Shown in pieces: positions 118 through 5,659 of a stretch of 21,441 nucleotides of DNA. Made by a program: the position numbers and the translations under genes. Position 1 is the first letter of the stretch; each line of letters begins with the position of its first letter. The DNA comes from a virus, in IMG/VR virus record IMGVR_UViG_3300048592_000439, positions 1-21,441 of that record; one strand, given 5' to 3'. Under the pieces are notes generated by a model that was not told the DNA's origin, did no database searches, and was given only the letters and a program-made list of their open reading frames with translations.

Positions 118-1146
118 ATGACGAATTTGCCAGCCGTCCCGGTCGACCTCGGCGAGATGGCCAACCGCGTCGCCGCCGGCGCCGTGTTCGATCTGTATGC
201 CGATGAGATGTCGCAAGCCACGCTGGAGACGCAGGTCGACGCGCTCAACCTGTTCGCGCGCTACCTCGGCGAGAAGAAGCACGCGACCACCGGCCCGCGA
301 CTGGCCACCGACCCGGCCCAGTGGCGCGGCATCACCTGGGGCCTTGTCGAAGGCTTCAAGCAGTGGATGAAAGAATCGCAGGGGTTTGCCATCGGCACGA
401 TCAACAACCGGCTGAGCGTAGTGCGCACCTATGCCGCCCTCGCCCACAAGGCCGGCGTGATCGAACCCGAGGAGGCCTCACTCATTGCCGCGGTGACGAA
501 CATCCGTTCCGCCGCCGGCATGAACATCGACAGCCACCGCGCAACGACGCGCGTGAGCACGAAGAAGGCGAACTTCAACACGCTTTCGCGCCAGGAGGTG
601 CAGGCGCTGCTCGATCAGCCCGACACGCCGCGCGGCCGGCGCGATGCAGCAGTGATCGCCACGCTGTATTACTTCGGCACGCGCGCCGAGGAGGCCGCCG
701 GCATCCAGGTGAGCGACGTGAACATGATCGAAGGCCTGGTGCACGTGTTCCGTCCCAAGGTCAAGGGCACCGACCAGGCGCATGGCGTCTATGACCTGAA
801 CGCGCCGGAGTTTGCGCCGGCGCGCCGGGCGTATGAGTCCTACCATCGTCATGACGCGCCGCCGATCGGGATGTTCTTCCGCGGGTCGATCCAGAACAGT
901 GACGAGCTGGGTGATCACCCGATGACCCGCGTCACCATATCGCAGCTCGTGGCCACGCTGGGCCGGCGCATCGGCTTCAGCAACCTGAGCGCGCATGACC
1001 TGCGCCACACCGGCGCCACGCACATCGCCGCAACAGACAACAACCTGATCCGTCTGCGCGACTGGGGTGGCTGGAACTCGATTCAGATGCCGGCGCGCTA
1101 TGCGAAGCGCGCGAAGACGGCCAATGAAGGCGTGAGGTTTGGGTAA
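118..1146 (+). CDS. int: Tyrosine recombinase / phage integrase (Cre-like active site)
   Basis: Site-specific DNA recombinase of 342 aa, the usual length for this family. An N-terminal core-binding (SAM-like) helical domain covers about residues 15-130 and the catalytic domain about 150-335. Visible catalytic residues are R189 (in GTRAEEAAGI), the beta-hairpin lysine K214 or K216 (PKVKGTD), H293 and R296 (AHDLRHTGATH), W319 where most integrases have His, and the nucleophile Y328 (ARYAKRA). The Trp with a 9-residue spacing to Tyr matches Cre (W315/Y324). The start is supported by GGAG at 106-109, 8 nt upstream. It is the leftmost gene, as expected of an integrase near an attachment site, and is followed 45 nt later by the 1192 gene. 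A second recombinase of a different class lies at 4115, so which one drives integration is open. Confidence 0.95.
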   Translation: MTNLPAVPVDLGEMANRVAAGAVFDLYADEMSQATLETQVDALNLFARYLGEKKHATTGPRLATDPAQWRGITWGLVEGFKQWMKESQGFAIGTINNRLSVVRTYAALAHKAGVIEPEEASLIAAVTNIRSAAGMNIDSHRATTRVSTKKANFNTLSRQEVQALLDQPDTPRGRRDAAVIATLYYFGTRAEEAAGIQVSDVNMIEGLVHVFRPKVKGTDQAHGVYDLNAPEFAPARRAYESYHRHDAPPIGMFFRGSIQNSDELGDHPMTRVTISQLVATLGRRIGFSNLSAHDLRHTGATHIAATDNNLIRLRDWGGWNSIQMPARYAKRAKTANEGVRFG

Positions 1147-1191: not shown

Positions 1192-1761
1192 ATGTCAAGT
1201 ATGAAGTTCAGAATCACAGGAACGTCGCCACTGCTTTTGCACAACGGCCAAACGAGCGATCCGCTCAACGAATGGTCGAAGAAGCTGAAGAAGGTGACAA
1301 GCAAGCGAAACAAGACAGACGAAGACCACGCCGAAATTGGACGAATAGAGTTTTTCGCAGGACTCTACTCAGAGAATGGACGCATCGTCATTCCCGCTGA
1401 CGTGATAGATGCGTGTCTGCTGAATGGCGCGAAGCGCTTCAAGCTTGGCCAGAAGTATCAATCTGGCTGCTACGTGAAAGAAGTGGCCCCGCTTGTTTTT
1501 GATGGTGACAAATTGCCGTTCGACAAGCTCTATGAGCGTGGGCAAAACGCGCTTCGCGTTGCCGTTCGCGTTGGTCAAGCGAAGACGATGCGCACCCGCC
1601 CCATGTTCAATGAGTGGTCTATGACCTTCGATGTCGAATACTTCGAAGACACATTGGATGGCGATCAGGTTGAGTTGATTGTCAAGACCGCCGGCGAACA
1701 GATCGGGGTTGGTGATTGGCGGCCACGCTATGGTCGGTTCAAGGTGGAGATGGTCAAGTAG
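1192..1761 (+). CDS. Uncharacterised phage protein with RAMP/Cas7-like features, adjacent to the pentamer array
   Basis: A 189-aa protein. It resembles, from memory, a widespread family of unnamed phage proteins; I know no proven function. The start is set by AAGGAG at 1179-1184, 7 nt upstream. An N-terminal strand KFRITGTSPLLLHNG (5-19) is followed by a basic linker (30-42), then GRIVIPADVIDACLLNGAKR (63-82), which recalls the IPG-x-S-x-K-G-A-L-R turn and helix of RAMP/Cas7 proteins. Next come RVGQAKTMRTRPMFNEW (126-142) and a C-terminal glycine/aromatic/arginine motif GVGDWRPRYGRFKVE (172-186) similar in style to the RAMP glycine-rich loop. These similarities are by eye and remote. The stop codon overlaps the first base of the 5-nt-periodic array, so the array would be the 3' part of the same transcript. 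By eye the gene is richer in A/T than its neighbours, suggesting separate acquisition. An ssDNA- or RNA-binding role is inference. Confidence 0.85.
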   Translation: MSSMKFRITGTSPLLLHNGQTSDPLNEWSKKLKKVTSKRNKTDEDHAEIGRIEFFAGLYSENGRIVIPADVIDACLLNGAKRFKLGQKYQSGCYVKEVAPLVFDGDKLPFDKLYERGQNALRVAVRVGQAKTMRTRPMFNEWSMTFDVEYFEDTLDGDQVELIVKTAGEQIGVGDWRPRYGRFKVEMVK

Positions 1762-2085
1762 GTAAGGTCGGAGGCGTGGCGAGGCTCGGCAAGGCGCGGT
1801 CCGGCGCGGCGTGGCCCGGCTAGGCAAGGCCTGGTGAGGTGAGGAAATGTCGGGGGCGAGGTCGGGACGGGCGAGGCACGGTCGGGTGAAGTCAGGCGCG
1901 GCGCGCTCTGGCATGGCATAGTGAGGAAGTGTCAGGGGCATGGCGCGGCTAGGCGCGGCGAGGCGCGGCCGGGTGCGGCCAGGCATGGTAAGGAAGTGTC
2001 GGAGGCGCGGCGTGGCAAGGCCGGATGTGGTCGGGCATGGCGCGGCTTGGTGCGGTCTGGCAAGGCAAGGGAAGGATGGGTGAAG
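1761..2085 (+). repeat. Composite array: four ~20-nt conserved repeats alternating with runs of GGYNN pentamers
   Basis: The whole stretch has a 5-nt period. Four conserved units lie at 1761-1775 (shortened by exactly 5 nt), 1838-1857, 1920-1939 and 1987-2006, with consensus GGTRAGGAARTGTCRGRGGC. Each is followed by 2 nt that shift the phase (GT, GA, AT, GC) and then by uninterrupted pentamers: 11 (1778-1832), 12 (1860-1919), 9 (1942-1986) and 13 (2009-2073). By my count 42 of 45 pentamers start with GG and 43 of 45 have a pyrimidine third; positions 4 and 5 are freely variable. An extra GGTGA sits at 1833-1837. The phase continues into the 5' arm of a perfect hairpin at 2074-2103, where GGTGAAGGTC may be a degenerate fifth unit. 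The array starts at the stop codon of the 1192 gene and does not look like coding sequence. Possible roles are a structured or guide-like RNA, a protein-binding scaffold, or a G-quadruplex-prone tract; none is proven. Confidence 0.9.
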
Positions 2086-2103
2086 GTCAATCTTCACCCA
2101 TCC
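2074..2103 (+). other. Perfect 12-bp hairpin closing the pentamer array
   Basis: GGATGGGTGAAG (2074-2085) is the exact reverse complement of CTTCACCCATCC (2092-2103), with a 6-nt loop GTCAAT. The 5' arm still follows the pentamer phase, so the hairpin belongs to the array rather than to unrelated intergenic DNA. No T-run follows, so a classic intrinsic terminator is not supported. It may cap, stabilise or mark the processing end of an array transcript. Confidence 0.75.
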
Positions 2104-2116
2104 AGAGAGATTTCAT

Positions 2117-2140
2117 CCGACGAATGGAAACTTACGTCGG
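2117..2140 (+). promoter_or_regulatory. Leader hairpin A (GAAA loop) before the truncated recombinase gene
   Basis: A 24-nt hairpin: outer stem CCGACG (2117-2122) with CGTCGG (2135-2140), an inner part with two mismatches, closing G-C pair and GAAA loop at 2127-2130. It aligns without gaps to the hairpin at 2979-3002, with two fully compensatory stem changes (C-G to T-A and G-C to A-T). It ends just before the ribosome-binding site GGGAG (2148-2152), so it could be a translational or protein-binding leader, or a DNA operator. Confidence 0.65.
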
Positions 2141-2157
2141 AATATATGGGAGCAACG

Positions 2158-2565
2158 ATGAGCGAAGATCATGAGGCCTATGCGGCAACGCCAGAGATAG
2201 ACGATCTCGATGTTTGGCTGGGCGAATTGCACAGCGCGATTCATGCATGGCTATTCGCCGCCGGCATCACTGACGGGCCGGTGTTTGTGAAGCTGGCCTA
2301 CGGCAAGCTCACGCGCCAGCCATTGACCTGCGAGAGCTACATCAACGAGATCGTGGCGCGTGTGGCAGATCGGGCAGGGCTGGAAGTGAAACGCATCGCA
2401 CCGCACCGCGCCTTCAGAGCGTCACCGATCACTGCGGCTGCACACGCCGACGAAAACCCGGCGCTCATCTCCAAGCGAGCGCGGCACAAGAGTTTTGAGA
2501 CCACGAAGAAATACATTGACCGCAATGCCGGCGACGATGTGCGCGTCGGCAGGGCGGCGTATTAG
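2158..2565 (+). CDS. Truncated tyrosine recombinase catalytic domain (C-terminal half only), chimeric N-terminus
   Basis: 135 aa. I chose the start at 2158 because GGGAG lies 5 nt upstream and because the leader and first codons are duplicated at the 3021 gene. Upstream in-frame sequence is the repeat array and not coding. Residues about 18-135 match the C-terminal half of tyrosine recombinases: GITDGPVFVKL (36-46), the HxxR region degenerate as APHRAFRAS (H83, R84, R87), then ARHKSFETTKKYIDR (108-122) with H110 and the nucleophile Y119 nine residues later. The first catalytic Arg and the Lys are absent, and the HxxR spacing is off, so it is unlikely to recombine DNA alone. The first about 17 residues resemble those of the 3021 protein, suggesting fusion of a duplicated 5' region to a recombinase remnant. 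It may be decaying, or a DNA-binding regulator. The next gene's RBS overlaps the stop. Confidence 0.75.
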   Translation: MSEDHEAYAATPEIDDLDVWLGELHSAIHAWLFAAGITDGPVFVKLAYGKLTRQPLTCESYINEIVARVADRAGLEVKRIAPHRAFRASPITAAAHADENPALISKRARHKSFETTKKYIDRNAGDDVRVGRAAY

Positions 2566-2572
2566 GAGCAGC

Positions 2573-2971
2573 ATGGCGGCAAAAAGCGAAGTCGAAGTGA
2601 TTCAGTGGGCGCAGGAGAATCCTGTATACGCATTACTACTTGAGCAAGGCTTAACGCCACGGGAGATCGAGGAAGTGCGCTTCGCCAATCACTATGCTCA
2701 TGAGTTCCTGCACGGCACAGATGGGCACTCGCGCCTTGTGGTGATTGCAAAGCTCGCGGCAGCGCTATTCGAGGTGGCTGAGACGATAGGGTTGCACGGG
2801 CACATGCTCCAATGCCCCGACTGCAAAGAACAATTGACGAGTCTTCTGCTTTGCACGAAATGCGGTAAGCGGTTCGAGTTGGTTGAACAGGGCACACGCG
2901 CCGCGATGGATTGGGCGCAAAAACACATGCCCAGTGCATACGACGACATGATCAGCCACACAGAGTATTGA
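2573..2971 (+). CDS. Small zinc-ribbon phage protein, function unknown
   Basis: 132 aa. The start at 2573 is set by AGGAG (2564-2568), which overlaps the preceding stop codon, so the two genes are likely coupled. The N-terminal 75 residues are predicted helical with a conserved-looking segment RQ/EQGLTPREIEEVRF-type (25-37) and YAHEFLHGTDGHSRLVVIAKLA (41-62). A four-cysteine ribbon follows: C81 and C84 (CPDC), C94 and C97 (CTKC), typical of zinc binding. I do not recognise the exact family. The position between recombinase remnant and Ea22-like gene suggests an early or accessory phage function such as nucleic-acid binding, which is inference. Confidence 0.85.
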   Translation: MAAKSEVEVIQWAQENPVYALLLEQGLTPREIEEVRFANHYAHEFLHGTDGHSRLVVIAKLAAALFEVAETIGLHGHMLQCPDCKEQLTSLLLCTKCGKRFELVEQGTRAAMDWAQKHMPSAYDDMISHTEY

Positions 2972-2978
2972 TTGATGA

Positions 2979-3002
2979 CCGATATAAGGAAACTTATATC
3001 GG
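2979..3002 (+). promoter_or_regulatory. Leader hairpin B: perfect 10-bp stem with GAAA loop
   Basis: CCGATATAAG (2979-2988) and CTTATATCGG (2993-3002) are exact reverse complements enclosing GAAA (2989-2992). The hairpin ends 5 nt before GGGAGG (3008-3013), the ribosome-binding site of the 3021 gene. It is the counterpart of the hairpin at 2117-2140, and the preserved pairing despite base changes argues for function in RNA or as a palindromic operator. Confidence 0.75.
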
Positions 3003-3020
3003 AATATGGGAGGGCAAAGC

Positions 3021-3779
3021 ATGAGCGAAGAACGAGAGACCCACACGACAACGCCGGCGCTTGATCTGGACGCCATCGAAGCGCGGGCGAACGCTGCGAC
3101 GCCGGGGCCGTGGGAGAAGTGCGGCGCAAATGATGGACGCTGCGCGTGCGGGATGATTAACACGCCGTTGCCGCCAAATGGTGTTGACCCATTCATGTTT
3201 GCTTATCGCGCCATTGATGGTGTTGCAACAATCCCAATGCGCGATGAAGACTATCGCAACATTGACTTCATCGCCGCCGCCCGCACCGACGTGCCGGCGC
3301 TGGTGGCTGAGGTGAGAAATCTACGCGCTTACGTTGCGGCATTGGATAATGAAATAAAGGCGTTTTACGGTGAGCCAATCAACACGGCCCAGCGATCACC
3401 CGAGGCTACGACTGCGGTGCTGGTGCAAGAACTCGAAGAATGTGTGAGTGCGTTCTGCGCGTCGAAGGTGTTAAACCGAGCCGTGTCCAGTGCGGCGAAT
3501 GAGATGCAGTGTGCACGCGCTCGACTGTTGCGGCGGGGCTGGGCATTGGAGAGCGAGAACGCCAAGCTTCACACCGACCTCGAGCGCATCGGCCGCGAGC
3601 GTGACGACATGGCCAGAGCCAACGCCGAGCTGCAGCCACTTGCAAGCATAGCAAATGAAGTGATTGCATATCGTCGACGTGTTGGCCCTCTGGGTTTTCA
3701 GTTGGAGAAGCTTGACGACTATCTCAGCAAGGCGGGTTTACCCCTTGATGCACCAAACAATGAGCACGCGCACAAATAG
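3021..3779 (+). CDS. Ea22-like phage protein
   Basis: 252 aa from the start at 3021. An in-frame ATG at 3006 lies in the leader and is rejected because GGGAGG (3008-3013) is placed 7 nt before 3021 and the duplicated gene at 2158 uses the same start context. The N-terminal half carries the pattern LDLDAIEARANAATPGPWE (residues 14-32) followed by YRNIDFIAAARTDVPALVAEV (about 75-95), which is the recognisable signature of the phage Ea22-like/ead group of accessory proteins of unknown role. Residues about 175-235 are charged and probably coiled coil. The gene end overlaps the start of the next gene by 20 nt. Such proteins are common in the variable early regions of temperate phages, which suits the location. 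Confidence 0.8.
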   Translation: MSEERETHTTTPALDLDAIEARANAATPGPWEKCGANDGRCACGMINTPLPPNGVDPFMFAYRAIDGVATIPMRDEDYRNIDFIAAARTDVPALVAEVRNLRAYVAALDNEIKAFYGEPINTAQRSPEATTAVLVQELEECVSAFCASKVLNRAVSSAANEMQCARARLLRRGWALESENAKLHTDLERIGRERDDMARANAELQPLASIANEVIAYRRRVGPLGFQLEKLDDYLSKAGLPLDAPNNEHAHK

Positions 3780-3942
3780 GATTCTCGCCCTACCGCTGAT
3801 GGGCGTGTTGATCGTTGCGCACTGCTGGCAACTCAGCAATCAATTCTCTGTCATCTCTGCGCTTGGAATCGCCGTTTGGAGTTTTTACGCCGGCATGATT
3901 GTTCATGCGTTGATGTGTGACAAAAACGGAGGCGGCAAGTGA
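3760..3942 (+). CDS. Small two-helix membrane protein
   Basis: 60 aa when started at 3760 (alternative in-frame ATG at 3748). It begins inside the 3' end of the Ea22-like gene. Two hydrophobic stretches are visible, about residues 8-22 (ILALPLMGVLIVAHC) and 27-49 (FSVISALGIAVWSFYAGMIVHAL), with a short charged tail. The family is unknown. The stop TGA (3940-3942) overlaps the GTG start of the following gene, consistent with translational coupling. No strong ribosome-binding site is visible, so expression may depend on the upstream gene. Confidence 0.65.
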   Translation: MSTRTNRILALPLMGVLIVAHCWQLSNQFSVISALGIAVWSFYAGMIVHALMCDKNGGGK

Positions 3943-4118
3943 CCCGCAAACTCCCCCACCCTCGCCGGCCGGGCCGGCCCAAGCGCGCGCCAAACGTCGC
4001 ACGCTTGCCGGTCGTGCCGCGATCCAAGCTCAGCGCCTACCCGCCGCGCGTGCAACGCCTCATGCGCGCAATCGCCGCTGCTGAAGGCCAGCTCGAGCCG
4101 CAGCCGGAATCTGCATGA
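3939..4118 (+). CDS. 59-aa basic AT-hook-like protein (GTG start), coupled to the serine recombinase
   Basis: This short gene begins with GTG at 3939, overlapping the preceding TGA (GTGA), and has a strong GGAGG at 3928-3932, 6 nt upstream. It ends with TGA at 4116-4118, overlapping the recombinase ATG (ATGA). The protein is strongly basic at its N-terminus with PRRPGRPKRAP (residues 8-18), a GRP-core AT-hook-like motif, followed by a second basic region and an acidic end. No database family is known to me. Both overlaps and the RBS argue that it is translated. Its position immediately before a large serine recombinase invites the idea of a DNA-binding accessory factor or recombination directionality factor, which is inference only. 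Confidence 0.6.
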   Translation: MTRKLPHPRRPGRPKRAPNVARLPVVPRSKLSAYPPRVQRLMRAIAAAEGQLEPQPESA

Positions 4119-5659
4119 CGCGCATCGCCATTTACATGCGCTACTCCAGCGAGGAGCAATCCGAAGGCTGGAGCATCGAAGCGCAGGAACGCGGCTGCCG
4201 GGCGTTCGTCGCCGGCAAGCCTGGCTGGAACATCGTCGCGCTCTACACCGACGAGGCACGCAGCGGCAAGAGCACCGACCGCCCCGGATTTCAGGACATG
4301 CTCAAGGGCGCGCACGCCGGCGCCTTCGATGTGCTGGTGTGCCATAAGCTCGACCGCTTCTCCCGCAACCTGGTCGACGTGCTGCTCACGCTCGACGATC
4401 TGCAAAAGCACGATGTGACCTTTGCCAGCGCGACAGAGCCGATTGACTTCACCACGCCGCTGGGCAAGGTTGTGCTGATCATCCTCGCGTTCTTCGCCGA
4501 GTGGTATCTGCAAAACCTCAGCGCCGAGACCACCAAAGGCAAGCGTGAGCGCTTTCAGGCCGGCCTATGGAACGGCGACCTGCGCTACGGCTACACACGC
4601 AGCGCCGACGGCAAGCCCCAGCTCGTGGATGAATCGCAGCACGTGCGCACCGCCTATGAGGCATGCGCCGCCGGCAAGAGCGACACACAGGTGGCCGCCG
4701 CGCTGAATGCAGCCGGCTCGCGCACACTCCGCCTGCGCAGCAACAGCAGGATGAAAGCCGGCTACGACACGCCGATCGACGAGCGCCGGCCGTGGACGAA
4801 GGATGGCATCGGCGCATTGTTCACGCCGGAAGCCGCCGCGTTCTACTGCGGCCACACCACCTACATCGGCGAAGAGGAGCGCAAGAAGCCGAAGCACAAG
4901 CGCGAGATGCAAGTGCGGCGCAACACCCACCCCGCCGTTATCGATGATGAGCTGGCGCAAACGGCACTGGCTGCACGAGCGCGCCGGCGCAACCCCGGCC
5001 GGCTGGCCACCGTGCCACTTAAACATGACTACATCTTCGGCGAGCGCGTCGCCGTGTGTAGCGTGTGCGGCAAGCCAATGCGCGCCTGGCACAGCACCAC
5101 CGGCCAGAAGGCCTACTATCGCTGCGCAGCCGCCCAGCGCGGGGAATCGTGCACGGCGCCGGCGCGCCCGGTGGCTGAAGACGTGCTGGTCGATTGCATG
5201 AACGATTACATCGCCGATCTGGAACTGCCCGACGACTGGCGCGAGGCGATCCGCGAGGTGAACGCCCAGGACGACGCCCGGGCGCAGGCGATAGAGGCGC
5301 GCGAGCGGCTGGCCGGCCAGCTCAGGCGCATCAACTACCAGATCAACGCCGGCATGGTGCTCGACGATGACCTGCCCGGCATGGAGCGCCGCGCGCGATC
5401 GTTGAAGGAGCAGATTGAAACGATGGCCATTCCAGCGCCGGCACGGACCGTGGAGGCCGGCGAGCGCATGGTGCGGCTGCGGCAGATCTGGCCGACGGCC
5501 AGCAAATACATCCGGCGCGAGATCGTGCAGGCGATGTGCGCAGCGGTGATTGTGGACACGGAACGCCGGCGCATTGCCGGCATCAAGCCGCATCCGGAGT
5601 TCCTGGTGTTGTTTGATCGCACACGCCTGACCCGTGACGGCGACGTGTGGCGCATATGA
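4115..5659 (+). CDS. Large serine recombinase (serine integrase)
   Basis: 514 aa, typical for large serine integrases, which cut and exchange DNA between attachment sites through a phosphoserine intermediate. The N-terminal resolvase domain (about 1-145) has the nucleophile S11 in MRYSSEEQ, an early QxxR-like segment, and KLDRFSRN with D80, R81 and R84. The recombinase domain follows (about 155-285), then a zinc ribbon with C315, C318, C337 and C346, and a probable coiled coil (about 385-437), the element that controls direction in this family. The start at 4115 overlaps the upstream stop (ATGA). All key residues appear intact. It is the last gene of the rightward block, followed by inverted repeats and a terminator-like hairpin. 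Together with the tyrosine integrase at 118 it gives the element two chemically different recombinases. Confidence 0.95.
   Translation: MTRIAIYMRYSSEEQSEGWSIEAQERGCRAFVAGKPGWNIVALYTDEARSGKSTDRPGFQDMLKGAHAGAFDVLVCHKLDRFSRNLVDVLLTLDDLQKHDVTFASATEPIDFTTPLGKVVLIILAFFAEWYLQNLSAETTKGKRERFQAGLWNGDLRYGYTRSADGKPQLVDESQHVRTAYEACAAGKSDTQVAAALNAAGSRTLRLRSNSRMKAGYDTPIDERRPWTKDGIGALFTPEAAAFYCGHTTYIGEEERKKPKHKREMQVRRNTHPAVIDDELAQTALAARARRRNPGRLATVPLKHDYIFGERVAVCSVCGKPMRAWHSTTGQKAYYRCAAAQRGESCTAPARPVAEDVLVDCMNDYIADLELPDDWREAIREVNAQDDARAQAIEARERLAGQLRRINYQINAGMVLDDDLPGMERRARSLKEQIETMAIPAPARTVEAGERMVRLRQIWPTASKYIRREIVQAMCAAVIVDTERRRIAGIKPHPEFLVLFDRTRLTRDGDVWRI

Follow-up and report, generated by a model that had tools for sequence, protein, structure and literature searches.

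The window (the whole stretch of DNA analyzed, a 21,441-base linear phage record from IMG/VR) carries a tyrosine integrase gene and a large serine recombinase gene, and between them a RAMP-like gene with a guide-RNA array and two copies of a hairpin-containing leader, each directly upstream of a different open reading frame (Table 1). The leader region lies beside integrase genes, in the lysogeny/integration region; tail and head-connector genes are on the opposite strand.

Table 1. Features of the leader region and its surroundings in the window.
Feature	Position	Strand	Remarks	Basis
Tyrosine integrase gene	118-1146			
Vipr (RAMP-like) gene	1192-1761	+	PHROG 4652	family profile match
GGY/NN guide-RNA array (GGYNN repeats)	1773-2083	+	directly downstream of the Vipr gene	
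Leader hairpin, copy 1	2117-2140	+	GAAA loop; pairing at 8 of 10 positions; mismatches A.A and T.T	sequence, folding
Shine-Dalgarno-like GGGAG, copy 1	2148-2152	+	ATG at 2158, gap 5 nt	
Duplicated gene start, copy 1	2158-2201	+	73% identical to 3021-3064	repeat finding
Chimeric gene, 135 aa	2158-2565	+	first ~13 codons like copy-2 gene, then tyrosine integrase C-terminal part	
Leader hairpin, copy 2	2979-3002	+	perfect 10-bp stem; GAAA loop	sequence, folding
Shine-Dalgarno-like GGGAG, copy 2	3008-3012	+	ATG at 3021, gap 8 nt	
Gene start of copy-2 gene	3021-3064	+	duplicated with the leader	repeat finding
Copy-2 gene, 252 aa	3021-3779	+	PHROG 722/1667/1138, no assigned function	weak likeness to phage proteins
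Large serine recombinase gene	4115-5659			

The two hairpins lie where a preliminary description of this DNA had placed them. As it stated, they align without gaps over 24 nt, have in common the GAAA loop and the CCGA/TCGG ends, and run on into a shared tail (GGAATAT..GGGAG..ATGAGCGAAG). Its account of the paired changes is also accurate: at pair 5-20, copy 1 has C-G and copy 2 has T-A, and at pair 6-19 they have G-C and A-T, respectively. Absent from it were two pair-breaking changes in copy 1 that have no compensation, A7.A18 and T9.T16; the stems thus differ at six positions, four of them belonging to the two kept pairs and two to the broken ones. Copy 1 also has a 2-nt AT insertion directly 3′ of the hairpin. 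The perfect stem of copy 2, which had been noted as well, is rare by chance: one 10-bp stem with a 4-nt loop is present in the window, against a mean of 0.07 per dinucleotide-shuffled window. The predicted folding energy is −12.8 kcal/mol for copy 2 (z −6.6) and −8.2 kcal/mol for copy 1 (z −3.3), and the predicted folds of copy 2 leave the start site unpaired. Within the window, the strict motif CCGA-N6-GAAA-N6-TCGG is found at two places only, the hairpins themselves. Rfam covariance models gave no match at the gathering threshold in the window, nor any in positions 1750-3100 with the E limit raised to 1. A scan of the + strand from 1700 to 4200 found no sigma-70-type site, although this may not be the host's promoter type. 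A sigma-70 promoter within the leader itself was considered and set aside: the candidate TATAAG in the left arm is missing from copy 1 and from two related contigs (G004 and G005, below), and no matching −35 element is kept (judged partly by eye).

Repeat finding shows that the likeness between the two places does not end with the leader. Positions 2117-2155 and 2979-3017 are 74% identical, and the resemblance, at about the same divergence, continues ~40 nt into both genes (copy 1, MSEDHEAYAATP; copy 2, MSEERETHTTTP). Since it passes the Shine-Dalgarno site and includes the first ~13 codons, what was duplicated is a gene start, not a leader alone. The earlier picture of one leader duplicated in front of two distinct genes is supported, and the leader is conserved in related phages. 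Past these codons, the copy-1 gene is 88.6% identical in DNA sequence to positions 1119-1425 of a related contig (G002), which there form a portion of an intact 332-aa integrase gene (429-1427). Copy 1 is thus a gene start duplicated onto an integrase remnant. The product of the copy-2 gene, a mosaic gene among relatives, has a weak likeness to proteins annotated as Ead/Ea22-like in Gordonia phage Getalong. The duplication is genuine, yet near-ordinary.

By pattern and protein scans, the leader was located in five contigs besides the window, designated G001 to G005. One of these, G003, is otherwise ~99.9% identical to the window and has both copies. The other four have a single copy, at the copy-2 locus, where the gene that follows either matches the copy-2 gene or has its end in common with it. 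The hairpin of G002 is identical to copy 2, and that of G001 has one unpaired change (A.C at pair 6-19). In G004 and G005 it reads CCGACAGTAAATCAACTTATATCGG, with another loop and a weaker stem containing unpaired C.A and A.C (the isolated hairpin folds at −3.1 kcal/mol). The outer CCGA/TCGG pairs do not vary among the six loci. Between the window and G001, the leader is 92.5% identical over 40 nt, compared to 83% in the neighboring recombinase gene; as these sequences are closely related, conservation of the leader could reflect shared descent. Across loci the order of parts is fixed, with the ATG 15-18 nt beyond the hairpin and 5-8 nt beyond GGGAG. An upstream ATG, inside AATATG, was rejected as the true start: its frame is not kept, being in frame at three of six loci and out of frame at the other three, so the downstream (second) ATG is the conserved start.

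Outside this group, searches were negative. No leader was seen in G006, which has a related integrase and may end before the place, and a distant DNA search of named phages with positions 2060-3060 gave no match. In bacterial genomes, CCGA-N5-GGAAACTTA-NN-TCGG had six matches, all attributed to chance and none with the AATATGGGAG tail; a looser pattern for the right half had four extra viral matches, also chance and without the dyad. Dispersed copies before other genes of related phages, which the preliminary description had suggested looking for, were not found in the related contigs searched. Repeated hairpins of another, GC-rich kind follow GGAAAAGCAAA in G001 (L020-L022; contig positions 11568-11599, 21160-21191, and 31070-31101) and G003 (L026; 26033-26067 and 36211-36245). 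They end in TTTGCTTTTCC on the opposite strand, and are therefore probably terminators of leftward genes.

The left border of the leader is sharp. In all loci the shared sequence starts at CCGA, the first hairpin base, and comparison of 300-nt upstream stretches showed nothing common abutting the hairpin except in the near-identical pair G004/G005. The upstream neighbor is the VIPR array for copy 1 in the window, a zinc-ribbon-like gene for copy 2, an integrase gene with a terminator-like hairpin in G001, a small ORF whose stop codon adjoins the hairpin in G002, and an HNH endonuclease gene in G004 and G005. In most contexts, the gap from upstream stop codon to hairpin is 0-7 nt. The HNH endonuclease gene (L030 and L029, respectively) has an AP2 domain and adjoins the hairpin, which in these two contigs has a different 5′ arm and loop; it may be a homing gene that inserted at the leader.

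The region upstream of copy 1 (1192-2103) is, judging by its sequence, a new member of an already described kind, the VIPR system. Such systems act against competing phages and consist of a RAMP-like protein and guide RNAs; the latter are made up of alternating GGY/NN motifs and recognize DNA with a one-base skip (PMC13142463). The Vipr family profile matches PDB entry 36pp, “SUSP1 Vipr protein,” over its full length (E 7.9e-87); in the array, 15 of 15 GG are in phase, against a maximum of eight in shuffles. Among 80 IMG/VR loci with a Vipr gene, the array is on the coding strand in 72 and on the other strand in none. The window array (compared over 1765-2105) consists of four units, with a repeated GGAARTGTCRGRGGC-like stretch connecting them, and that of G003 (L025, 2791-3240) of five, the extra unit being a 97-bp hybrid of units 3 and 4. 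This would fit unequal recombination between units, giving a guide of new specificity, or else a difference in assembly. More divergent Vipr-like genes (E 2e-8 against the family profile) are found in G002 (L023, 1452-2228) and on the G004 contig (30057-29260, − strand). The order in G002 is integrase, Vipr-like gene, a second gene, and a short GG-periodic stretch (2752-2791), so similar positions are taken by different VIPR variants. In G001 and G005, no Vipr gene was found.

The leader is not part of this system: among the 80 Vipr loci its tail is found in G003 only, and it is present in G001 and G005, in which no Vipr gene turned up. Nor do the guides appear to be aimed at the leader or at related contigs, where the best matches by the published one-base-skip rule are no better than those of shuffled guides; in the 667 kb searched, no targets were found for the four window guides. 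At the array end, 13 nt before copy 1, a strong 12-bp hairpin (GGATGGGTGAAG-GTCAAT-CTTCACCCATCC, 2074-2103) probably belongs to the last guide RNA, as its tail or end.

Selection for base pairing, which the preliminary description had read from the two paired changes, was examined with an alignment of five distinct sequences and a null of 500 column shuffles of the 3′ letters. Observed cells are paired at 90%, compared to a mean of 88.4% in shuffles; 175 of the 500 shuffles reach the observed share of paired cells and the observed covariation score, and 144 reach two pairs changed on both sides. The double changes are confined to a single sequence, copy 1, while unpaired changes occur in copy 1, G001, and G004/G005. 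With counts no better than chance, covariation was rejected as proof of a selected RNA structure, and the claim of selection for pairing is not borne out. When copy 2 is given six random changes in simulation, two compensated pairs arise in 1-3% of trials and an equally stable fold in 3-4%; this gives weak, nominal backing to pairing selection, from one sequence pair chosen for its striking look. Few copies, a duplication, and unpaired changes in relatives had been named beforehand as what would speak against selection on the motif, and this is largely what was found.

It is possible, though doubtful, that only the start site (AACTTAYRTCGGAATATGGGAG-ATG) is conserved and that the hairpin is idle, an inherited stem-loop decaying in some lineages; the window would then hold a mere duplicated gene start. 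The lack of covariation beyond that in shuffles is consistent with this, as are the start of G004/G005 identity to copy 2 at the dyad center and the distribution of variable columns, 8 of 13 in the 5′ half of the hairpin vs. 2 of 17 in the 3′ half and tail (nominal Fisher p 0.007, for related sequences). Compared arm to arm, however, the imbalance does not reach significance (Fisher p 0.35), and the perfect stem, improbable by chance, is unchanged between copy 2 and G002; even G004/G005 retain CCGA and, within the stem, a TAA/TTA part. Evenly conserved arms would be predicted for a structural RNA and for a symmetric operator alike. The latter possibility, that a phage repressor or activator binds the 24-bp dyad as DNA just upstream of the start site and so controls the gene, is suggested by the sequence of the near-perfect dyad, by the exact start of homology at its edge, and by its location in the lysogeny/integration region beside integrase genes. 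It is nevertheless decidedly unlikely: the half-sites are unequally kept, the dyad always has a single orientation and a fixed distance to GGGAG, and no conserved sigma-70 promoter (perhaps not the host's type) adjoins it. No further dyad copies or close variants were found in the related contigs searched, which also speaks against it; an operator with several sites is likewise not supported, as such copies would be expected and the 3′ half and tail are better kept than the 5′ half.

Least probable, and by our estimate very much so, is that the dyad serves the serine recombinase, an integrase, or an HNH endonuclease for recombination or insertion. This would explain cassette exchange to the left of the dyad. 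In its favor are the neighbors there, which differ by lineage, the start of identity at the dyad center in G004/G005, the HNH gene abutting the dyad in these contigs, and the 862-bp block between two direct copies in the window. Yet the hairpin is perfect in G002, a contig without a DNA match to the serine recombinase gene; no matching site with the same tail turned up in the bacterial genomes scanned, and the distance to the integrase genes is not conserved.

Among known elements, the closest are the Start-Associated Sequences and extended SAS (SAS/ESAS) of Cluster K mycobacteriophages (PMC3203893; PMC12699233). SAS have a 13-bp consensus, GGGATAGGAGCCC, located 3-7 nt upstream of the start codon (PMC3203893); ESAS are 17-bp imperfect inverted repeats with 4-13 bp spacers, just upstream of SAS, and there are 11-19 copies per genome (PMC3203893; PMC12699233). 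Arm changes in ESAS speak against RNA pairing, and the authors favored protein binding (PMC3203893). Like these, the leader is a short conserved sequence of putative function, with a Shine-Dalgarno core a few nt before the starts of non-structural genes, an imperfect inverted repeat upstream, and arm changes that do not support pairing. The SAS consensus is absent from it, however: the sequence is AATATGGGAG(GG), although the position of GGGAG is similar. Its arms are 10 bp with a 4-nt loop, it occurs once per related contig and twice in the window and G003 (the contigs being fragments), and its conserved unit takes in the gene start, unlike SAS/ESAS. The leader resembles these elements but, by sequence, repeat length, and copy number, is not a member.

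Promoter early stem-loop cassettes, or PeSLs, were reportedly described in T4-like phages by Arbiol in 2010 and Comeau in 2014 (cited in PMC4503421 and PMC5931544). PeSLs and the leader are both stem-loops between genes, at borders of gene shuffling among related phages, but no conserved early promoter was found with the leader by the sigma-70 scan (again, perhaps not the host's type), and it has one or two copies per genome where PeSLs are expected as several between genes. Intercistronic mRNA stabilizer hairpins and intrinsic terminators are stem-loops directly after a stop codon. The leader shares this position, and a stabilizing role for it is putative. An intrinsic terminator would have a G+C-rich stem and a T run; the tail here is AATATGGGAG, without a T run after the hairpin, so the leader is not classed as one, and a terminator scan did not report its hairpin.

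Taken together, the reading we favor, at about even chances, is that the element is a conserved 5′ leader, or translation-initiation region, of one phage accessory gene, bordering a region of cassette swapping and duplicated once. Its parts would be the stem-loop, a short A/U-rich AATAT, the Shine-Dalgarno GGGAG, and the ATG. Lying between two genes in a shared mRNA, the hairpin may act as an insulating or stabilizing stem that frees the start site and shields it from the upstream cassette, and the downstream gene could therefore be translated whatever cassette lies upstream. Against this reading, the covariation counts lend no support to selection on pairing, and a strong hairpin is not essential, given the weak one with a differing loop in G004/G005. 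Copy 1 may have arisen by illegitimate recombination or duplication, with drift afterwards. A further notion, quite unlikely, is that the leader, with its hairpin, ribosome-binding site, and first codons, serves as a portable start cassette open to copying before other sequence, here rescuing expression of the integrase remnant, and that it also marks a fixed border for exchange of accessory cassettes (VIPR, HNH, integrase, and zinc-ribbon genes).

In interest the VIPR array, in which nearly identical contigs differ by one unit, outranks the leader. Neither insulation nor the origin of a new ORF is expected to hold much surprise for specialists. The duplicated gene start is nonetheless a case of a new ORF in the making, from an integrase remnant behind a leader and a few codons; and insulation of one gene start from a changing upstream neighbor, if true, would be a small, testable case of how expression is kept up in mosaic genomes.
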